NCBI RefSeq assembly: GCF_000304355.2
Contig: NC_018227.2
Span: 1,550,001-1,614,000, forward strand
Source of the DNA: Methanoculleus bourgensis MS2
GTDB taxonomy: Archaea > Halobacteriota > Methanomicrobia > Methanomicrobiales > Methanoculleaceae
DNA: 64,000 nt
Direction: 5' to 3'
A program made the position numbers and the translations under genes. This document shows, piece after piece, positions 1,195 to 11,245 of the stretch (the first letter of the stretch is position 1; every line of letters begins with the position of its first letter). The notes under the pieces are model-generated. The model saw only the letters and a program-made list of their open reading frames with translations, was not told the origin of the DNA and did not search any database.

Positions 1195-1308
1195 AGTATT
1201 TCATCCTTTTACCCTTGTTCAATGCATTCCGTTCATGAAAGAGACCGGGCATTCACCTGCTCCGGTTCCCTGAAGGCCGCTACTGCACGTCCCAAAAGGG
1301 ACTATAAG

Positions 1309-1336
1309 AGTAGAAGGAGGGTTATTAATAAAATTT
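1309..1336 (-). promoter_or_regulatory. Probable mcr promoter region
   Basis: Read on the minus strand there are two TATA-like boxes, TTTATTAATA (about 1323-1336) and CTTATAGT (about 1310-1317), which would start transcription around 1290-1300 and give a leader of about 100 nt before mcrB. The choice between the boxes is a guess. AT-rich DNA continues to about 1720. Confidence 0.4.
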
Positions 1337-1399
1337 GCGAATTCAAATTGGATTTTAACGTAAATAATAATATTCATCGTAATTATATTCATATCAGGG

Positions 1400-2250
1400 T
1401 ATTTTAAAATCGGGATTCAATTGTCCAAATTGTTGATCGTTGTACTTAAAAAGGATTTCGACGGGTTGTCGCCCCTCAGTTCACGGCCTGGGAGGAGCAG
1501 CAGAGAGGGACATATTAAATAATAAAATGAACAAACAGATTAATAATAAGTATGATTATTTCTTCAGATGCAATGTCCAACAGTATCCACTTTCATACGT
1601 TGCACTCAAAGATATATAATGCTACCCAAAACGGACAGGATTTTTCAAAACCCTGATCGTCAGACGCCTGTTTTATGAACGCACCAGATTACGGTCAAAA
1701 TTAAAAGAGATGCAAATATATAGTGCTCACTAACTCACCAGCCATCCGTATCCAGGTGCACCGCGAGCCGGACAGGCGGGGGAGACCACCCCGGCCCGCG
1801 CCCCGGGAAGACCTGTGAGTATCCGGCTCAGGAGAGCCGCTCCAGGTGGAGGCGAGATCTGGTTTTTCGCGTATATTTAGGGGCACCGCTGCACCCACAC
1901 TCTCCATGATATGCCTATTTACAGGTCAGATAGCCGATATTTATGCGAGCAGCCCCTTGCTCTGCCAGATCTGCGCCGCAGACGGAGCGTTGCCTCATGC
2001 AGAGAGGCATGTTGCCGCGCCATGCGCGAAAGGCAACGGGGAAGGCAGGAACCACACGAACCTCACCATCTCCGCGTGCGACCGCATCACCATCTACACC
2101 GCCGACCGTCTCACACAGGAGTACGCGAAGAGCGCGAAGGCCGTGGGATTGCGACATCCCCCATCGCGCCTCCCACGTGCTTCGCGAGCGGTCGGCGATC
2201 GTTCCCACACACCAGGATCCGCAAAAAGGGTGAATCAGTTCACTATCTGC
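1400..2250. other. Long intergenic stretch, AT-rich then GC-rich, no convincing gene
   Basis: 1400-1720 is AT-rich with no gene. 1740-2300 is GC-rich and contains short overlapping open frames on both strands that look like chance products. A good TATA-like box (TATATTTAG, 1874-1882) precedes an ATG at 1906 whose frame encodes about 120 residues with no recognisable family. The end of that frame (about 2110-2250) is a diverged copy of the interspersed repeat seen near 19270, 45060, 46270 and 56910, sharing cores such as CCCACGTGCTTC and TCGGCGATC. I treat the stretch as non-coding with a repeat relic. Confidence 0.45.
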
Positions 2251-2418: not shown

Positions 2419-2431
2419 GGTAAAGTTTACC
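2419..2431. promoter_or_regulatory. 13-nt palindrome upstream of the fwd promoter
   Basis: GGTAAAGTTTACC is a perfect palindrome around a central G, about 60 nt upstream of the TATA box of the fwd leader. It is a candidate regulator site (molybdate/tungstate or other control would make sense for fwd), but no family-specific box was recognised. Confidence 0.3.
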
Positions 2432-2488
2432 AAATTAACTGTTTGAAGTAAATTTAGTCGCTTGATCCCCCTTACAAATACGGAATGG

Positions 2489-2496
2489 TTAAATAG
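2489..2496 (+). promoter_or_regulatory. Probable TATA box of the fwd operon
   Basis: TTAAATAG in AT-rich DNA, with a transcription start expected near 2515-2520. That is where the base composition switches abruptly to the GC-rich leader. Confidence 0.5.
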
Positions 2497-2519
2497 AATT
2501 CATTACAAGTTATGATAAA

Positions 2520-2780
2520 ACGATCTATCCGGTGCTCCGCCAAGAGAGTTTCAGTCCATCCCGAGGTGGGCAGCCCCCCTCTGCGTATTCCCCCCGGTTT
2601 CTGGCAGTGCTCCAGCAAACCCGAACGACAAACCTTCTCCGTGCAAGAAGGCCCGGCATACCGGGTACGGGGCGTCCTGGTGGACACTCTCGCAACACAG
2701 TGAATGGCCCAAATGCGGGTCAAATCCAGAGCACCACTCTCCGGGGCCGATTCTCCTGGAGGTTAGGAGAACCGGCCCTG
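2520..2780 (+). ncRNA. Candidate structured RNA leader of the fwd operon
   Basis: A GC-rich island of about 260 nt between an AT-rich promoter and fwdD, with a chain of local hairpins: 2596-2622 (GGTTT, CTGG / CCAG, AAACC), CCCGG-CATA-CCGGG near 2652-2665, GTCC-TGGT-GGAC near 2674-2685, GGCCC/GGGTC near 2706-2720, AGAG-CACCA-CTCT near 2728-2740, and a long stem 2744-2778 (about 14 pairs with one A-C mismatch, loop GGAGGTT). No open frame here looks protein-like. I could not match it to SRP RNA, RNase P RNA, tRNA or the bacterial Moco riboswitch. It may be a cis-regulatory leader or an independent RNA; the hairpins are seen, the function is inferred. Confidence 0.4.
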
Positions 2781-2802
2781 TCAATCACATTGAGGCAAAA
2801 CC

Positions 2803-3219
2803 ATGGCGAAGAAGATTACGTTGAACATGATCACCCAGCGCTCTGTAGAAGAAGGCGTTGGGATAGTAAAGGGCAAAATGACCCCGGAGTACTTCGAGGC
2901 CTGCTCTATCATCGAGATGCACGACGACGACGTCAAAGCACTCGGTCTGGTCCCGAACCAGCTCGTCAAGGTGACGAGCGAATGCGGAAGTGTTATCGTC
3001 AAAAGCGTCAGGGGACGCCAGGCGCTCTACCCCGGTCTTGCGTTCATTCCGCAGGGTGTCTATGCAAACCAGATAGTCCCGCCGCGGACTCAGGCAACCG
3101 GGGAACCCCAGTACAGCGGATTTCCTGTGACAGTCGAGCCCGCTCCTGAAGGCGAGAGGCGCAAGAGCACCCTCGAACTCGTCCAGAGCGCCGTAGGGAT
3201 GTGGAGAGGTGATCAGTAA
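2803..3219 (+). CDS. fwdD: Formylmethanofuran dehydrogenase subunit D
   Basis: 138 residues. Subunit D of the Mo/W-dependent formylmethanofuran dehydrogenase, which reduces CO2 with ferredoxin and attaches it to methanofuran. FwdD is the small beta-barrel subunit equivalent to the C-terminal molybdopterin-dinucleotide-binding domain of formate dehydrogenases, and completes the cofactor pocket of FwdB. The start MAKKITLNMITQRSVEEG is typical; GAGG lies 7 nt upstream of the ATG. Its stop overlaps the fwdB start (ATGGC at 3219), so translation is probably coupled. First gene of fwdDBAC. Whether it is a tungsten (fwd) or molybdenum (fmd) isoform cannot be told by eye. Confidence 0.93.
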   Translation: MAKKITLNMITQRSVEEGVGIVKGKMTPEYFEACSIIEMHDDDVKALGLVPNQLVKVTSECGSVIVKSVRGRQALYPGLAFIPQGVYANQIVPPRTQATGEPQYSGFPVTVEPAPEGERRKSTLELVQSAVGMWRGDQ

Positions 3220-4586
3220 TGGCAAAAAAGATTGAGAATGTCGGATGCCCGTTCTGCGGCGTCTGCTGTGACGACCTTGTCGTCACCGTCTCTGACGACG
3301 GGAAGAAGATCCTTGAGGTTGAGAACGCCTGCATCATCGGCAGCACGGTCTTCCACCGTGCCATGGAGGATCGGCACACACTGCCCCGCCTCCGCCAGCC
3401 GGACGGCACCTACAAAGAGATCTCCTACGATGAGGCAGTCGATTACACGGCAAAGGTCCTCTACAACGCAAAGAAACCCCTGATCTACGGGTTTGGGTCG
3501 ACCAACTGTGAGGGCATGGCCGCCGCTGCCAAGGTCGCTGAGAAGGCAGGTGCCGTGCTCGACAACTGTGCGTCCATCTGCCACGGGAGCTCGTTCCTTG
3601 CTATATTCGACAACGGCTACCCGAGCTGCACCCTCGGCGAGACAAAGAACCGGGCCGACGTCATCGTCTACTGGGGCGCAAACCCGGCTCACGCTCACCC
3701 GCGGCACATGTCCCGCTACTCGATCTTCCCCCGCGGGTTCTTCACCGGCAAGGGCCACAAGGGCCGCAAGATCATCGTCATCGATCCCCGGCACACCGAC
3801 ACCGCTCAGGTGGCTGATATCCACCTGCAGGTGAAACAGGGACACGACTACGACCTCTTCAACGCATTCCGGACCGTTGTCCGGGGCCACGATATCCCCG
3901 ATGAGGTTGCGGGTATCAAGAAGGAACAGATCATCGAGGCTGTCGAGATCATGAAGAAGGCGCGGTTCGGCACCATCTTCTACGGCATGGGTCTCTGCCA
4001 CTCCGACGGTCGGAACCACAACGTGGACATCGCCATCAGCCTGACCCGCGACCTCAACGACTTCACCAAGTGGACGATCATGGCGATGCGGGGTCACTAC
4101 AACATCACGGGGCCTGGCGCGGTCTGGTCATGGCAATACGGGTTCCCCTACTGCCTGGACCTGACGAAGAGGGATATCGCCCACATGAACCCGGGTGAGA
4201 CGAGCTCTGTCGACCTCGCCATGCGGGAAGAGGTGGACGCCTTCGTCAACATCGGGACCGATGCCGCCGCTCACTTCCCGATCGAGCCGGTCAAAAACCT
4301 CAGGAAGCATCCCTGGATCACCATCGACCCCCACCCCAACATGGCAACCGAGATCTCAGACCTCCATATCCCGGTGGGAATCGTCGGTGTCGAGGTTCCG
4401 GGCATCGTCTATCGGATGGACAACGTCCCGATCCAGTACCGTAAGGTCATCGATGCACCCGATGGTGTCCCGAGCGACGAGGAACTCTTCGAGCGGATCT
4501 ACCAGAGGCTCTGCGAACTGGAAGCGGAGGACGCCGCAAAGGAACCTGCAAAGGCCGTACCTGAAGGTGTCCGTGCGGGGGAATGA
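3219..4586 (+). CDS. fwdB: Formylmethanofuran dehydrogenase subunit B (catalytic, pterin-binding)
   Basis: 455 residues. Catalytic subunit that reduces CO2 to formate at a bis-pterin W/Mo centre. An N-terminal [4Fe-4S] motif (C10, C13, C17 in CPFCGVCCDD, with C38) is followed by a molybdopterin oxidoreductase fold. The metal-ligand position is cysteine in DNCASICHGSS (C117 and C121, the latter the likely ligand), so this is the Cys and not the selenocysteine form; there is no in-frame TGA. It starts on the last base of fwdD and is followed 3 nt later by fwdA. Length is normal for the family. Confidence 0.95.
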   Translation: MAKKIENVGCPFCGVCCDDLVVTVSDDGKKILEVENACIIGSTVFHRAMEDRHTLPRLRQPDGTYKEISYDEAVDYTAKVLYNAKKPLIYGFGSTNCEGMAAAAKVAEKAGAVLDNCASICHGSSFLAIFDNGYPSCTLGETKNRADVIVYWGANPAHAHPRHMSRYSIFPRGFFTGKGHKGRKIIVIDPRHTDTAQVADIHLQVKQGHDYDLFNAFRTVVRGHDIPDEVAGIKKEQIIEAVEIMKKARFGTIFYGMGLCHSDGRNHNVDIAISLTRDLNDFTKWTIMAMRGHYNITGPGAVWSWQYGFPYCLDLTKRDIAHMNPGETSSVDLAMREEVDAFVNIGTDAAAHFPIEPVKNLRKHPWITIDPHPNMATEISDLHIPVGIVGVEVPGIVYRMDNVPIQYRKVIDAPDGVPSDEELFERIYQRLCELEAEDAAKEPAKAVPEGVRAGE

Positions 4587-4589
4587 ACC

Positions 4590-6302
4590 ATGGGTGAACT
4601 AATAATCAAGAACGGATTCGTCTTTGACCCCCTGCAGCGGATCAAGGGCGACCGGATGGATATCGGGATCAAGGACGGCAAGATCGTCGAGACGACGGCT
4701 CTGGCGAACCCGAAGACAATCGATGCCGCCGGCATGACCGTGATGGCGGGCGGTGTGGACATCCACTCTCACGTTGTCGGGCCGAAGGTGAACGTCGGCC
4801 GGCTCTTCCGGCCTGAGGACAAACTCTTCAAGAGCCCCCACAAATCTCCTACGTGCAACCGCATGGAGATGGGCTTCTCGGTCCCCTCCACGTTCAAGAC
4901 CGGCTATGACTACGCCCGGATGGGCTACGTCTTCGTTAACGAAGCAGCGATGCCCCCGCTCCACTCCCCGCACGTCCACGAGGAGATCCGGGATACCCCG
5001 ATCATCGACAACGCAGCGATGCCGGTCTTCGGCAACAACTGGTTCACGCTCGATTATCTCAAGAACAACGAGATCGAGAACAACGCCGCGTACACTGCCT
5101 GGCTCCTGCGGGCAACCCGCGGGTTTGCCATCAAGGTCGTCAACCCCGGCGGCACGGAAGCCTGGGGATGGGGCCTGAACTGTGACAACATCCACGATCC
5201 GGTCCCATACTTCGATATCACCCCGGCAGAGATCGTGAAGGGTCTCATCGAGACAAACGAATTCCTGGGCCTCCCCCACTCGATGCACCTGCACTGCAAC
5301 AACCTCGGGAACCCGGGCAACTACACCGATACCCTCGACTCGTTCAAGCTCGCCGAGGGCTACACCCCGAAGAACAACTTCGGCCGGGACCAGGTCATGC
5401 ACGTCACGCACGTCCAGTTCTGCTCCTATGGCGGTGACTCCTGGAGGAACGTCGAGTCCCGGGCCGACAAGATCATGGACTACGTGAACTCGCACGAGAA
5501 CATCACCATCGACATGGGTCAGGTGACCCTCGACGAGACCACGACCATGACCGCAGACGGACCGTTCGAGCACCACCTCCGGGCCCTCAACAACCTGAAA
5601 TGGGCAAACACCGACGTGGAACTCGAGACCGCCGCGGGCGTCGTCCCCTACATCTACAGCCCGACCGTCAAGGTCTGCACCATCCAGTGGGCCATCGGTC
5701 TGGAACTTGCGCTCTACGCCAAGGACCCGATGCGGACGTTCATCACCACCGACCACCCGAACGCCGGGCCGTTCACCCGCTACCCACGGGTCATAAAGTG
5801 GCTGATGAGCCGTGCAGCACGTGACGAGACCATGAAGACGTTCAAGTGGCTCGACCGGACGATTGAGTCCACCACCATAGACAGCATCGACCGTGAACTC
5901 ACGCTCTACGAGATCGCGCAGATGACCAGGGCAGGGCCGGCAAAGGCGCTTGGCATCAGCAACATCTACGGCGGACTTGCTCCCGGCATGGATGCCGATG
6001 TCGCCATCTACGCCCTCAACCCCGAGGATATGCCCTCCGACCCGGAGATGATCGAGAACGCCTTCTCACGGTGCGCGTACCTTATCAAGGACGGCGTCGT
6101 GACCGTCAAGGGCGGCGAAGTCGTCTCAGAGCCCGCAAAGCGGACCGTCTGGGTCGACGTGAAGGTCCCGGAGAACGCACAGGTGCAGAGAGATATCTAC
6201 GAGCACTTCCTCAGGCACTACAGCGTGGGAGTCGAGAACTACAAGCTCTTCGAGGAACACCTCCACAACCCGAGGGTGATCGAGGTCGATTCGACACAGT
6301 AA
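4590..6302 (+). CDS. fwdA: Formylmethanofuran dehydrogenase subunit A (amidohydrolase)
   Basis: 570 residues. Subunit A is a binuclear-zinc amidohydrolase that condenses formate, delivered by an internal tunnel from FwdB, with methanofuran. The HxH metal motif is present (GGVDIHSHVVGP, H59 and H61), a likely carboxylated lysine is near K182 (GFAIKVVNPGG), and further His ligands are in MHLHCNNLG and HVTHVQF. A conserved Asp motif occurs in FITTDHPNAGP. It starts 3 nt after fwdB and is full length. In vivo the subunit assembles with B, C, D and polyferredoxin subunits; no F or G gene is in this window. Confidence 0.95.
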   Translation: MGELIIKNGFVFDPLQRIKGDRMDIGIKDGKIVETTALANPKTIDAAGMTVMAGGVDIHSHVVGPKVNVGRLFRPEDKLFKSPHKSPTCNRMEMGFSVPSTFKTGYDYARMGYVFVNEAAMPPLHSPHVHEEIRDTPIIDNAAMPVFGNNWFTLDYLKNNEIENNAAYTAWLLRATRGFAIKVVNPGGTEAWGWGLNCDNIHDPVPYFDITPAEIVKGLIETNEFLGLPHSMHLHCNNLGNPGNYTDTLDSFKLAEGYTPKNNFGRDQVMHVTHVQFCSYGGDSWRNVESRADKIMDYVNSHENITIDMGQVTLDETTTMTADGPFEHHLRALNNLKWANTDVELETAAGVVPYIYSPTVKVCTIQWAIGLELALYAKDPMRTFITTDHPNAGPFTRYPRVIKWLMSRAARDETMKTFKWLDRTIESTTIDSIDRELTLYEIAQMTRAGPAKALGISNIYGGLAPGMDADVAIYALNPEDMPSDPEMIENAFSRCAYLIKDGVVTVKGGEVVSEPAKRTVWVDVKVPENAQVQRDIYEHFLRHYSVGVENYKLFEEHLHNPRVIEVDSTQ

Positions 6303-6315
6303 GGTGATGAGAAGT

Positions 6316-7116
6316 ATGAAGACAGTAACTATCACCCTGGCAAACCCCCCCGAACTCTATCTTGAGGGGCAGAATATCACTCCGGACAACTTTGCAGGAA
6401 AGAAGGCCGCTGAGATCGCCACTCTCGATGTCTGGGAGGGCAAGATGAAGAGCCCGCTCGGAAAGTACTTCACCGTTGAGGGCGAAGGCGGAGCAACGGC
6501 TGCCGAGACGAAGATCATCGTCCGTGGGGACTGCACCCGTGTGAAGCGGATCGGCCAGCAGATGACCGCGGGCGAGATCGTCATCGAAAGCAACGCCGAC
6601 ATGTACATCGGCGGCTGGATGAAAGGCGGAAAGATCCACGTGAAAGGAAACGTCGACTCGTTCTGCGGCATCGGAATGGAAGGCGGCGAACTGATCGTCG
6701 ACGGAAAGGCCGGATGTCACCTTGGCTCATCGCCCCGCGGTGAGTGGCGCGGTATGCAGGGCGGACTGATCCGGGTTGCCGGGGACGTCGGCAGCGACAC
6801 AGCCACGTTCATCAACGGCGGGACCATCATCATCGGCGGCGATGCGGACATTCACGTCTCCACCCACGGCGAAGGCGGCACCGTCATCATCAAGGGGAAC
6901 GCCAAGGCCCGTGTCGGCGGGCAGATGGTGAAAGGCGACATCTACGTCTATGGCACAATCGAGAACCCGCTCCCCGGGTTCAAGCTGGTCGGCGAGGTCG
7001 AGCAGGAGGTCGATGGTGAGACTGCCCTCTTCGCCCACTATATCGGGGACCTCGGTGAACGCCACCCGGTCTCCAAGGGTAAGACGGTGTATGCAAACAT
7101 CTACACCAGAATCTAA
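6316..7116 (+). CDS. fwdC: Formylmethanofuran dehydrogenase subunit C
   Basis: 266 residues from ATG 6316. Structural subunit built as a right-handed beta-helix related to the GXGXG C-terminal domain of glutamate synthase; repeats such as IGGWMKGGKIHVKGN and NGGTIIIGGDADIHV are visible. Upstream in-frame starts exist (GTG 6304, ATG 6307), but GGTGAT at 6303-6308 is a ribosome binding site 7 nt before ATG 6316, which makes MKTVTITL the best N-terminus. Last gene of the operon; a T-run (7118-7124) follows the stop. A distant structural relative, the GltB3 GXGXG gene, lies at 43064 in the same window. Confidence 0.94.
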   Translation: MKTVTITLANPPELYLEGQNITPDNFAGKKAAEIATLDVWEGKMKSPLGKYFTVEGEGGATAAETKIIVRGDCTRVKRIGQQMTAGEIVIESNADMYIGGWMKGGKIHVKGNVDSFCGIGMEGGELIVDGKAGCHLGSSPRGEWRGMQGGLIRVAGDVGSDTATFINGGTIIIGGDADIHVSTHGEGGTVIIKGNAKARVGGQMVKGDIYVYGTIENPLPGFKLVGEVEQEVDGETALFAHYIGDLGERHPVSKGKTVYANIYTRI

Positions 7117-7191: not shown

Positions 7192-8400
7192 ATGACCGGA
7201 TTTCTTCGTCTTATACCGGTGATCGAGGCTATCCATATCATCAACCGGATCTCCCCGGCGGTCGGGACAGAGAATGTGCCGCTGACCGCGGCGTATGGTC
7301 GCATCCTCGCGGAGGACGTCCAGGCTGATACTGACATACCGGGTTTTGACCGCTCGGTCAAGGACGGGTTTGCGGTGAACTGCGCCGATACCGTCCGGGC
7401 ATCGGAGGCGGCCCCGGTCCCGCTTACGAGGGTGGGGCAGGTTGTCATGGGCCGCGGAGGGAACAGTCCCGCGATCAGGCCCGGCGAGTGTGCCTACATC
7501 CCGACCGGTGGCGCTCTCCCCAAAGGAGCGGATGCGGTCGTGATGCTTGAGTACTGCCAGGACCTCGGGGAGACGGTTCTTGCGGGTCGCCAGGTCTCCC
7601 CGGGCGAGAACATCATCCGTGCCGATGAGGATTACGCCCGCGGCGAAGGCGTTCTTGCGGCCGGGAAACACCTGAAGGTCCAGGACATCGGCGTGCTCGC
7701 GGCGGTCGGGGTCTCCCGGGTGGCGGTGAGGAAGAGACCGGTCATCGGGATCGTCCCGACCGGCATCGAACTGGTGCCGCCGGACCAGGTCCCGGCTGCC
7801 GGTGAGGTCCGCGACGTCAACTCCTACCTCTGCGGCGCGTTCGTCGAGGAGATGGGCGGCGTTCCGCGGTATTATGGTATCGTCAGGGATGACCGCGCAG
7901 AACTCGCGGCGCTCCTCTCGTCGGCGCTTGACGAGTGTGACGCGTTCCTGATCACCGGGGGGAGCTCCAAGGACGACCGCGATATCACGGCCGACGTGAT
8001 CGGGTCGCTTGGAGAGGTGCTCGCGCACGGAATGGCGCTGGCGCCCGGGAAACCGACGATCATCGGGAAGATCGGGCATGCGCCCGTCATCGGCATCCCC
8101 GGCCACCCGGCATCGACGAGGGTCGTTCTTGCGGTGCTCGCAGGTCCCCTCCTGCGGTCGCTCTCTGGCTGCACCGGTCGCCGGGAGGCGAAGCAGAAGG
8201 CGGTCCTCACACGGAACATCCCCTCGGAGCGGGGGCGTGAGGAGTACGTCAGGGTCAAACTCCTCGGGGATGAAGCGGTGCCGCTCTTCGGGAAGTCGGG
8301 CCTCTTAAACACCCTCGTAGAGAGCGACGGGCTCATCAGGATCCTCCAGGGATGGGAGGGGCTCGAGGCAGGATGCGAGGTGGACGTGACGCTATGGTGA
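7192..8400 (+). CDS. moeA: MoeA family molybdenum/tungsten insertion protein (copy 1)
   Basis: 402 residues. MoeA inserts the metal into (adenylylated) molybdopterin, finishing the Mo/W cofactor used by Fwd. The family pattern is visible: N-terminal VPLTAAYGRILAEDV, DIPGFDRSVKDGFAV, PTGGALPKGADAVVMLE, the active-site loop ITGGSSKDDRD, and GIPGHPAST before the C-terminal beta-barrel. GGGAGG lies about 8 nt upstream of ATG 7192. It lies directly downstream of fwdDBAC and overlaps a second moeA, which ties both to cofactor supply for formylmethanofuran dehydrogenase. Archaea often carry two paralogs, thought to favour Mo or W; which is which is not readable. Confidence 0.92.
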   Translation: MTGFLRLIPVIEAIHIINRISPAVGTENVPLTAAYGRILAEDVQADTDIPGFDRSVKDGFAVNCADTVRASEAAPVPLTRVGQVVMGRGGNSPAIRPGECAYIPTGGALPKGADAVVMLEYCQDLGETVLAGRQVSPGENIIRADEDYARGEGVLAAGKHLKVQDIGVLAAVGVSRVAVRKRPVIGIVPTGIELVPPDQVPAAGEVRDVNSYLCGAFVEEMGGVPRYYGIVRDDRAELAALLSSALDECDAFLITGGSSKDDRDITADVIGSLGEVLAHGMALAPGKPTIIGKIGHAPVIGIPGHPASTRVVLAVLAGPLLRSLSGCTGRREAKQKAVLTRNIPSERGREEYVRVKLLGDEAVPLFGKSGLLNTLVESDGLIRILQGWEGLEAGCEVDVTLW

Positions 8401-9656
8401 GGGAGCGTCTTCTGCTGAGACCGCTTGCTGAGGTCCGGGATATGATGCTGGGCGCTTTCCCGCGCCCGAACCGGTCCGTCCGGGTCCCGGTGGCGGGGGC
8501 AACCGGGCGGGTGACGGTCGAGCCCATCCACTCGCCGCTGACGGTCCCGGCAACCGACATCGCCGCAAGGGACGGGTTCGCCGTTGTGAGCAGCGAGACC
8601 AGTGGTGCGGATGACGAGAACCCTGTTCTGCTCAGGGAGCCCTGCCGGGTGAACACGGGAAACGCGATCCCGCCGGGCTACGATGCGGTCGTCATGATCG
8701 AGGATATCACCGGGGGGGAGGGGGCCTGGTTCACCAGCAGGGCCGCATCACCTGGGGAGCACGTCCACCCCGCCGGGGAGGAGATCCGGAGCGGGGACCT
8801 GATCCTCCCGGCCGGACACCTGATACGCCCCTGCGACATCGGGGCGCTCCTCTCCTACGGGATCACCGGGCTTGATGTACAGGCCGTGAAGGTCGGGCTC
8901 CTGCCGACAGGGAGCGAGGTGATCCCGGCAGGCGAGCGCCCGGGCCCGGGCGAGGTGATCGAGAGCAATACTGCTGTTGCGGCGGCATGGCTCGGTGAGG
9001 CGGGCGCAACCTGCACCCGCTACCCCATCGTCTGCGACGACCAGAGGCTGCTCCGGCAGGCGATCGCAAAGGGCGTCAGGGAGAACGACCTCCTCCTGGT
9101 CTCTGCCGGTTCTTCAGCGGGCACCCGCGACTTCACTGCCGGGGTCATCGGCGATCTTGGTGAGGTGCTCGTCCACGGGATCGCCATGAAGCCCGGGAAA
9201 CCGGCGATCATCGGGCGGGTCGACGGGAAACCGGTTATCGGGATGCCGGGCTACCCGATCGCTGCTATGACGACTGTGCGGGAGCTCGCCCTCCCCCTGC
9301 TCGTGGAGTGGGGGTTCTGCGCTCCGTACGGGGAGCGCCTCCACGCCCGGCTCGCGAGGACAGTCCAGACCGACCCGGGTTTTGATGAGTACGTCTTTCT
9401 CACGGTATCTCGCTCCGGCGACCGGTACATCGCCACCCCCCTGCCCCGGGGGGCCGGGACGCAGATGACGGTCGTGCGGGCAAACGCCTACCTGCACGTC
9501 CCCCCGGGCACCGGCAGCATCCACGAGGGTGCGGAGGTCGAGATCCTGTTGACCGGGCCGCGTGCGCTGATCAGGGAGTCCCCCGGGAGCCGCAGACCCG
9601 CGCCCGAACACCGGGTGCAGGGAGTAGGAGCGACGCTCCCGCTGAAGAACTCCTGA
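8394..9656 (+). CDS. moeA: MoeA family molybdenum/tungsten insertion protein (copy 2)
   Basis: 420 residues from ATG 8394, which overlaps the first moeA stop (ATGGTGA); GAGGTGGA is the ribosome binding site. An in-frame extension to 8352 exists but would begin inside moeA1 without a good site. Motifs: DIAARDGFAVVSSE, NTGNAIPPGYDAVVMIE, LLPTGSEVIP, SAGSSAGTRDFTAG and GMPGYPIAAM. No extra periplasmic-binding domain is fused. The last 40 residues or so (Pro/Arg-rich, ending TLPLKNS) look unlike the family barrel and border the repeat region, so the original C-terminus may have been altered. Confidence 0.9.
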   Translation: MVRERLLLRPLAEVRDMMLGAFPRPNRSVRVPVAGATGRVTVEPIHSPLTVPATDIAARDGFAVVSSETSGADDENPVLLREPCRVNTGNAIPPGYDAVVMIEDITGGEGAWFTSRAASPGEHVHPAGEEIRSGDLILPAGHLIRPCDIGALLSYGITGLDVQAVKVGLLPTGSEVIPAGERPGPGEVIESNTAVAAAWLGEAGATCTRYPIVCDDQRLLRQAIAKGVRENDLLLVSAGSSAGTRDFTAGVIGDLGEVLVHGIAMKPGKPAIIGRVDGKPVIGMPGYPIAAMTTVRELALPLLVEWGFCAPYGERLHARLARTVQTDPGFDEYVFLTVSRSGDRYIATPLPRGAGTQMTVVRANAYLHVPPGTGSIHEGAEVEILLTGPRALIRESPGSRRPAPEHRVQGVGATLPLKNS

Positions 9657-10471: not shown

Positions 10472-11245
10472 TCACCCGCCGTTCTCGCAGGCGCTCACGA
10501 GCGCCCTGATGCGGCCCTCGAGGTCAGGGAGCCTCTCCTGGTACTCCCGCGCGAGCAGGAACGTCCTGACGGCGTCGCCCATCCCCCGGTGGACATCCAG
10601 GAGGTGGCGGTACTCCGGGGGAACCGGATACCGGAAGTTTCTCGAAGCGACGGTGGAGCCGTCGACGGAGAAGTCAATGAGCCGGGCGAGGCGGTCGAGG
10701 GAGAGGACCTGTTTCATGCCGAAACACCGCCGGATCTCCCGCTGGAGGTCGACGAGGGTGCACCCATCAAGGGAGACCTCTGCGGCGCGGAAGGCCTTCC
10801 GCTCCATATGCGCCGCAAAGACGACTACCTTGTTGATATCCCCTGCCGAGAGGAGCGACTCCATGAAGAGCCGAAGGTCGACAAACGCATTCCGGGCGGT
10901 CTCTCCGGCCGCCAGAACCTCACTCTCGGGAACCCGGAACGAGTGGTCGTAGGCCATCCCGTACTCGCCGCGGCCCATATTCGCCACGGTGGTCGCGACA
11001 CCGACGGTTTTGCCGCATTGATCGGTCACCTTCTTCCAGATCTCAACGTCGACATCATACCGGAACTGCTCCCCTATATACCTGACGCTGTCATCCCCGG
11101 GCCGGTGGACGACCGCGCCTATCTCGACCGGCATCATGACCGCCCGGCAGGTGCCGTAGACGTAGCCGAACTCGATATCAAGGTAGACGCTCTCGCCACA
11201 CTGACCCGTCATGGACTGGAACACACAAAGAGATCTCGTGCGCAC
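10472..11245 (-). CDS. DnaQ/RNase T-like (DEDDh fold) protein, divergent active site; paralog of 20795-21520
   Basis: 257 residues from GTG 11245 (a later ATG at 11212, MTGQCGESVYLDIEFG, is also possible). The layout matches 3'-5' exonucleases of the DEDDh group: motif I D-x-E in YLDIEFG, a motif II-like segment VVVFAAHMERKAF where the usual Asp is not evident, VDLQREIRR as in the family's D-T/L segment, and motif III H-x4-D in HRGMGDAV. The C-terminal third is helical. About 240 residues align by eye with the paralog at 20795-21520, including MPVEIG, FRYDVDVE, TVANMGRGEY and HRxxGDA. Divergent from the RNase III gene. The exact role (DNA or RNA trimming, or a catalytically altered protein) is unknown. 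Confidence 0.6.
   Translation of the reverse strand: MRTRSLCVFQSMTGQCGESVYLDIEFGYVYGTCRAVMMPVEIGAVVHRPGDDSVRYIGEQFRYDVDVEIWKKVTDQCGKTVGVATTVANMGRGEYGMAYDHSFRVPESEVLAAGETARNAFVDLRLFMESLLSAGDINKVVVFAAHMERKAFRAAEVSLDGCTLVDLQREIRRCFGMKQVLSLDRLARLIDFSVDGSTVASRNFRYPVPPEYRHLLDVHRGMGDAVRTFLLAREYQERLPDLEGRIRALVSACENGG

Follow-up and report, generated by a model that had tools for sequence, protein, structure and literature searches.

The Moco RNA motif (RF01055), a bacterial molybdenum-cofactor riboswitch, is a structured leader located 5′ of molybdenum and molybdopterin genes. The Methanomicrobiales are major biogas methanogens, and to our knowledge little is known about the control of formylmethanofuran dehydrogenase in this order. 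In Methanosarcina acetivorans, six of seven mapped methanogenesis-related promoters have untranslated leaders of 51-137 nt, which the authors interpreted as permitting translational control (PMC2838876); that mapping did not include the leaders of fwd and fmd. Molybdate control of fmd in Methanothermobacter has been linked to the DNA-binding protein Tfx, and not to RNA (PMC3087415). Our literature search found no start-site map or leader study for Methanoculleus.

Here we analyze a 64,000-nt stretch of the Methanoculleus bourgensis MS2 chromosome (NC_018227.2, positions 1,550,001 to 1,614,000; the window), in which a fwdDBAC-moeA operon is preceded by a long region predicted to be transcribed and folded. 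Like the M. acetivorans leaders it appears to lie untranslated at the head of an operon for energy metabolism and may allow translational control, although it is about twice as long and shows pooled evidence of genus-wide conserved pairing. As in the Methanothermobacter fmdECB/Tfx system, a formylmethanofuran dehydrogenase operon carries an element downstream of its promoter; there, however, the element is a DNA site of Tfx, whereas the Methanoculleus candidate is an RNA structure. With the Moco RNA motif it shares the position of a structured leader ahead of molybdenum-related genes, but it has neither an Rfam match, in window or leader, nor a conserved aptamer core. Structured leaders are already known as a kind; the fwd leader is outside the Rfam families and restricted to one genus.

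Results

Operon and genomic context

The operon comprises the following genes.

2803-3219, plus strand: fwdD (NF042908 match below cut-off; Pfam molybdopterin-binding domain)
3219-4586, plus strand: fwdB (NCBIfam TIGR03129, above cut-off)
4590-6302, plus strand: fwdA (NCBIfam TIGR03121, above cut-off)
6304-7116, plus strand: fwdC (NCBIfam TIGR03122, above cut-off)
7192-9656, plus strand: two moeA-type genes downstream of fwdC, in the same orientation

A moeA gene lies 3′ of fwdC in all six relatives examined, including the sister genus. Members of the sister genus and of the window's clade carry the tandem moeA-type pair (7192-9656), of which the other Methanoculleus clades examined keep the second gene only. 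The same genome holds another fwdDBAC set, located 3′ of an HdrA-type gene and lacking a long leader, with an FwdD that is 47% identical to that of the window; the window's operon is thus one of two sets, a second and leader-bearing one. The set without the leader (L134 8252-14160; G000:C1:1758251-1764160) adjoins a second mcrB copy, so that fwd and mcr are neighbors twice in this genome. Beside the operon in six of six relatives examined is a gene for a 257-aa protein (10472-11245, minus strand; 63-82% identity) that has no match in NCBIfam or Pfam. The mcrB start lies at 1194, divergent from the fwd operon. Upstream of the mcr operon (1195-1459, minus strand) the first 120 nt are 93-98% identical to genome G001, and in other clades the region is about 85% identical up to 1459; this conservation exceeds that of the fwd leader, and the region may hold a conserved mcr leader or regulatory site.

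Promoter and predicted fold

The elements of the promoter and leader are listed below; p values refer to the tree-preserving null described further on.

2421-2433, plus strand: GTAAAGTTTAC-type element about 55-65 bp 5′ of the TATA box, candidate operator
2472-2511, plus strand: core promoter with TTACAAAT, a BRE-like GGAATGG, the TATA box TTAAATA (2489-2495) and ATTACAAGTT
2515-2802, plus strand: whole 5′ leader of fwdDBAC-moeA, as indicated by fold, z-scores and relatives
2512-2553, plus strand: start region and conserved 5′ box (ATGAYAAARCGATCYRYCCGGTGCTCCGCC...GTTTC) with the small hairpin GGUG-CUC-CGCC, nearly invariant in 26 leaders
2531-2735, plus strand: P0, an alternative long-range closing helix of GGUGCUC (2531-2537) with GAGCACC (2729-2735), which closes the minimum free energy (MFE) structure of the window
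2565-2662, plus strand: helix P2, GGUGGGC (2565-2571) with GCAUACC (2656-2662), and a variable apical part
2663-2740, plus strand: P3 multibranch domain, within the match to model R1 (2658-2805, 118.9 bits)
2663-2670 with about 2733-2740, plus strand: P3 helix, degraded in the window (p<0.002)
2674-2680 with 2726-2732, plus strand: P3a, GUCCUGG with CCAGAGC (p=0.004)
2691-2700, plus strand: P3 domain loop CGCAACACAG
2707-2710 with 2717-2720, plus strand: P3c, GCCC with GGGU (not significant)
2742-2780, plus strand: P4 terminal hairpin, 16 pairs with one 1x1 mismatch
2781-2805, plus strand: ribosome-binding region YCAAYYACATYGAGGCAAAACCATG with the Shine-Dalgarno GAGG (2792-2795), near-invariant in 26 leaders

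The promoter is 34% GC with its TATA box at 2489-2495, as an earlier note made from the DNA letters had read it, and 2471-2541 is 87-96% identical across the genus. Copies of TTACAA lie on either side of the TATA box (2473-2478 and 2503-2508), and most relatives have GTAAAG..TTTAC or GTAAAG..GTAAT at the same place upstream of it. The GTAAAG element is, from its sequence, a possible operator, and the genus-conserved stretch 2421-2511 with both repeats and element can be regarded as a candidate operator region. With the usual archaeal TATA-to-start spacing, transcription is predicted to begin near 2515-2519, which would give a leader of about 285 nt. The earlier note had named transcription from about 2790 as a result that would overturn its reading; the conserved promoter and the absence of a second TATA box ahead of fwdD speak against such a start. 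A leader peptide from the ATG at 2512 was considered and rejected, as stops follow directly in L004, L005 and L019.

RNAfold predicts a structure of -106.3 kcal/mol with nine hairpins for 2515-2800, more than the at least six stem-loops counted by eye in the earlier note, which also came close on the last stem (about 14 pairs at 2744-2778, now extended to P4). Its description of the leader as GC-rich applies relative to the promoter only, since the 59% GC of the leader equals that of the fwd coding region (60%) and lies below the window mean (62.5%). Three of 200 dinucleotide shuffles of the window leader were as stable (z -2.42; -2.16 in a second run), and among random 285-nt windows of the same sequence, with a control mean z of -0.44, 5 of 85 reached z -2.4. 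Taken alone, the window leader shows a modest folding excess over chance. No tRNA or tmRNA was detected, and Rfam returned no match for the whole window at the gathering score or for the leader at E values up to 5, consistent with the RNA class having gone unrecognized by the earlier reader.

Distribution and variation of the leader

Twenty-eight distinct Methanoculleus genomes yielded the leader, with a length of 165-297 nt from just 5′ of the presumed start to the ATG. Alignment of 26 leaders reveals two near-unchanging blocks, the promoter with the first ~45 nt and, at the 3′ end, 25 nt that include the ribosome-binding site, separated by a middle that varies in length and sequence. In three to four species the leader is reduced to 165-182 nt and much of P2 and P3 is missing while the operon is intact; the inner domain is deleted in L010, L018, L019 and L040. 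Identity to the leader of G001 is 68-83%, and the spacer at 1735-2270 reaches just 52-65%. The 5′ box motif has one mismatch-free copy per genome in most species. Clades A and B have in common the hairpin loop CGCAACACAG (2691-2700) within differing surroundings, and this is a possible recognition loop.

Covariance model R1, built from the 3′ half of the leader with the window's own leader in its training set, finds the window at the score listed above despite the divergence of the window's clade, and it places the leader as a single copy per genome only ahead of the fwdDBAC-moeA operon. Across 150 genomes of the order the leader stands ahead of no other gene, transporter genes included. Outside the Methanoculleus leaders, searching the order gave one weak partial match (G110, E 0.028). 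A near-certain Methanoculleus-type fwd leader with its operon was also found on a short contig (G132:C90:820-966) that had been assigned to another genus (g23), probably through mis-binning. Two genomes (G013 and G008) have neither operon nor leader, and in G042 the operon is present and the contig ends at the leader. In the sister genus (G097, G129) the promoter is kept and followed by a leader of about 280 nt with no recognizable sequence similarity to that of Methanoculleus. Other Methanomicrobiales families have a ferredoxin gene of about 87-90 codons between the promoter and fwdD.

Conservation of pairing

The excess stability becomes clear when species are compared: folding z-scores are negative for 30 of 30 leaders (28 from Methanoculleus and two from the sister genus; mean -2.41), and for the terminal region the mean is -2.46 with 90% negative. 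When 21 leaders are aligned on sequence alone, pairing in the named helices amounts to 84.6%, compared with 31-54% in slid versions. Because relatedness inflates simple shuffles, we used a tree-preserving null in which each alignment column is re-evolved on the tree. Against it, overall pairing is 0.846 versus 0.738 +- 0.028 (p<0.002), all R1 pairs together give p<0.002, and P2 gives p = 0.004 among the 19 species that have it. The Shine-Dalgarno stem is 85% paired with p=0.04, a value that is weak ground given that about ten helices were tested. P0 is without covariation support (p = 0.33), P4 as a helix is not significant (p about 0.13-0.25), and support for the 5′ hairpins and for the anti-Shine-Dalgarno pairing GUUUC/GAGGC does not go beyond conservation. 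P4 is strong in the window's clade and clade C (z -2.6 to -5.2), and in some members of clade B (L005, L009, L036, L043) it is eroded.

Alignment A6 of 28 leaders contains two-sided changes in 22-23 pairs versus 15.2 expected, although A6 was fitted to the model and its counts therefore lean towards structure. The best single examples include the P2 exchange U-G/C-G/U-A among species and a P3 pair in which L008, and likewise L012/L099, have C-G in place of U-A. Single-pair covariation under the tree null identified no significant pair in alignment A4, and the RNAalifold consensus of all 26 leaders is weak because the middle varies in length and sequence. For the compensatory changes among relatives that the earlier note had put forward as a check, pooled helices give pairing above the tree null, while no individual pair is significant. 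In sum, comparison of the sequences supports conserved pairing in aggregate, not per pair.

An alternative pairing of the ribosome-binding site may exist in part of the genus, where UUGCC in the 3′ strand of P2 is complementary to a GGCAA overlapping the Shine-Dalgarno. UUGCC/GGCAA becomes UUUCC/GGAAA in L012 and GUUCC/GGAAA in L099 with loss of the outer P2 pairs, probably as one event. This pairing is interrupted by an A-C mismatch in the window, where the alternative is not predicted, and the predicted Shine-Dalgarno partner varies between species.

Discussion

The explanation we favor, with reasonable though far from full confidence, is that the fwdDBAC-moeA mRNA begins with a structured 5′ untranslated leader that acts in cis, is specific to the Methanoculleus lineage and most likely sets translation initiation and mRNA lifetime. 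The fold, the relatives and the conservation at genus level agree on a long structured leader ahead of the fwd operon, as the earlier note had proposed. Transcription would start near 2515-2519, and the RNA would fold into a 5′ hairpin, the long helix P2, the multibranch P3 and the terminal P4, beyond which the invariant ribosome-binding stretch would lie open. The inner domain, together with P4, may cover the 5′ side and keep the binding site accessible, and the leader would thereby influence both initiation and the lifetime of the message; in part of the genus, pairing of the P2 UUGCC with the Shine-Dalgarno GGCAA instead could produce an on/off change. We infer an effect on translation or mRNA stability because the ribosome-binding stretch is open and invariant, stable structure precedes it, and there is no terminator. 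Control or protection is the probable role of the leader.

The strongest challenge to an RNA function comes from the promoter itself. It is the most conserved part of the region, with the TTACAA repeats flanking the TATA box and the upstream GTAAAG element, and Tfx acts in Methanothermobacter fmd control at a site downstream of the promoter (PMC3087415). A DNA-binding protein acting on the promoter might then exert most of the control, with the leader a passive, fast-evolving spacer with a variable middle, whose folding would stem from base composition and from weak selection at the 5′ end of the mRNA. We regard this as rather unlikely, though it deserves real weight: every species has a leader that folds more stably than its shuffles, pairing lies above the tree null, and conservation is higher in the leader than in the spacer upstream. 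Promoter control and leader control could coexist. The place of the leader between promoter and fwdD is that of the ferredoxin gene in other families of the order, which raises the possibility of a decayed copy of that ~87-90-codon gene; however, an nhmmer model of 15 such genes found no match in 30 leaders and alignment scores are mostly at chance level, which makes such a relic very improbable. Similarly slim is the chance that the 2742-2780 stem marks the end of a separate small RNA gene, a possibility raised in the earlier note. The own promoter and strong terminal stem fit such a gene, but there is no U-tract 3′ of the stem in the window and none visible in relatives, fwdD lacks a TATA box of its own, and conserved sequence reads through into the invariant ribosome-binding site, with the leader never found apart from the operon.

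A new archaeal riboswitch for Mo/W, molybdopterin cofactor or a methanogenic cofactor, opening and closing the ribosome-binding site, is suggested by a Mo/W enzyme operon that ends in moeA genes, by the loop CGCAACRCA conserved in two clades, and by the mutually exclusive pairings of UUGCC with P2 or the Shine-Dalgarno, with one compensatory change. A classical aptamer is nevertheless disfavored because species that retain the operon differ in the middle of the leader, and several have lost part of it. A genus-wide conserved unpaired core is absent, the invariant positions being at the two ends only; no Rfam family matches even at E 5, and the element precedes no other gene, transporters among them, in the 150 genomes of the order. 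On balance a riboswitch appears improbable. We hold in equally low expectation the broader idea of an RNA switch, the first archaeal one on the methanogenesis CO2-entry operon, in which UUGCC would reside in P2 or on the Shine-Dalgarno and the signal would be a metal, cofactor, redox state or a protein reading the conserved 5′ box. Control of the leader by Mo/W, metal, cofactor or redox state, as the earlier note had suggested, is a guess from gene context, namely the moeA genes at the end of the operon.

The conserved leader and promoter together form a compact, testable regulatory region, and a shuttle vector is available in the genus, in Methanoculleus thermophilus (PMC11267900). If the leader RNA regulates, the CO2-entry step of methanogenesis would be under RNA-level control; otherwise the repeats conserved in the promoter would suggest a regulator that binds DNA.
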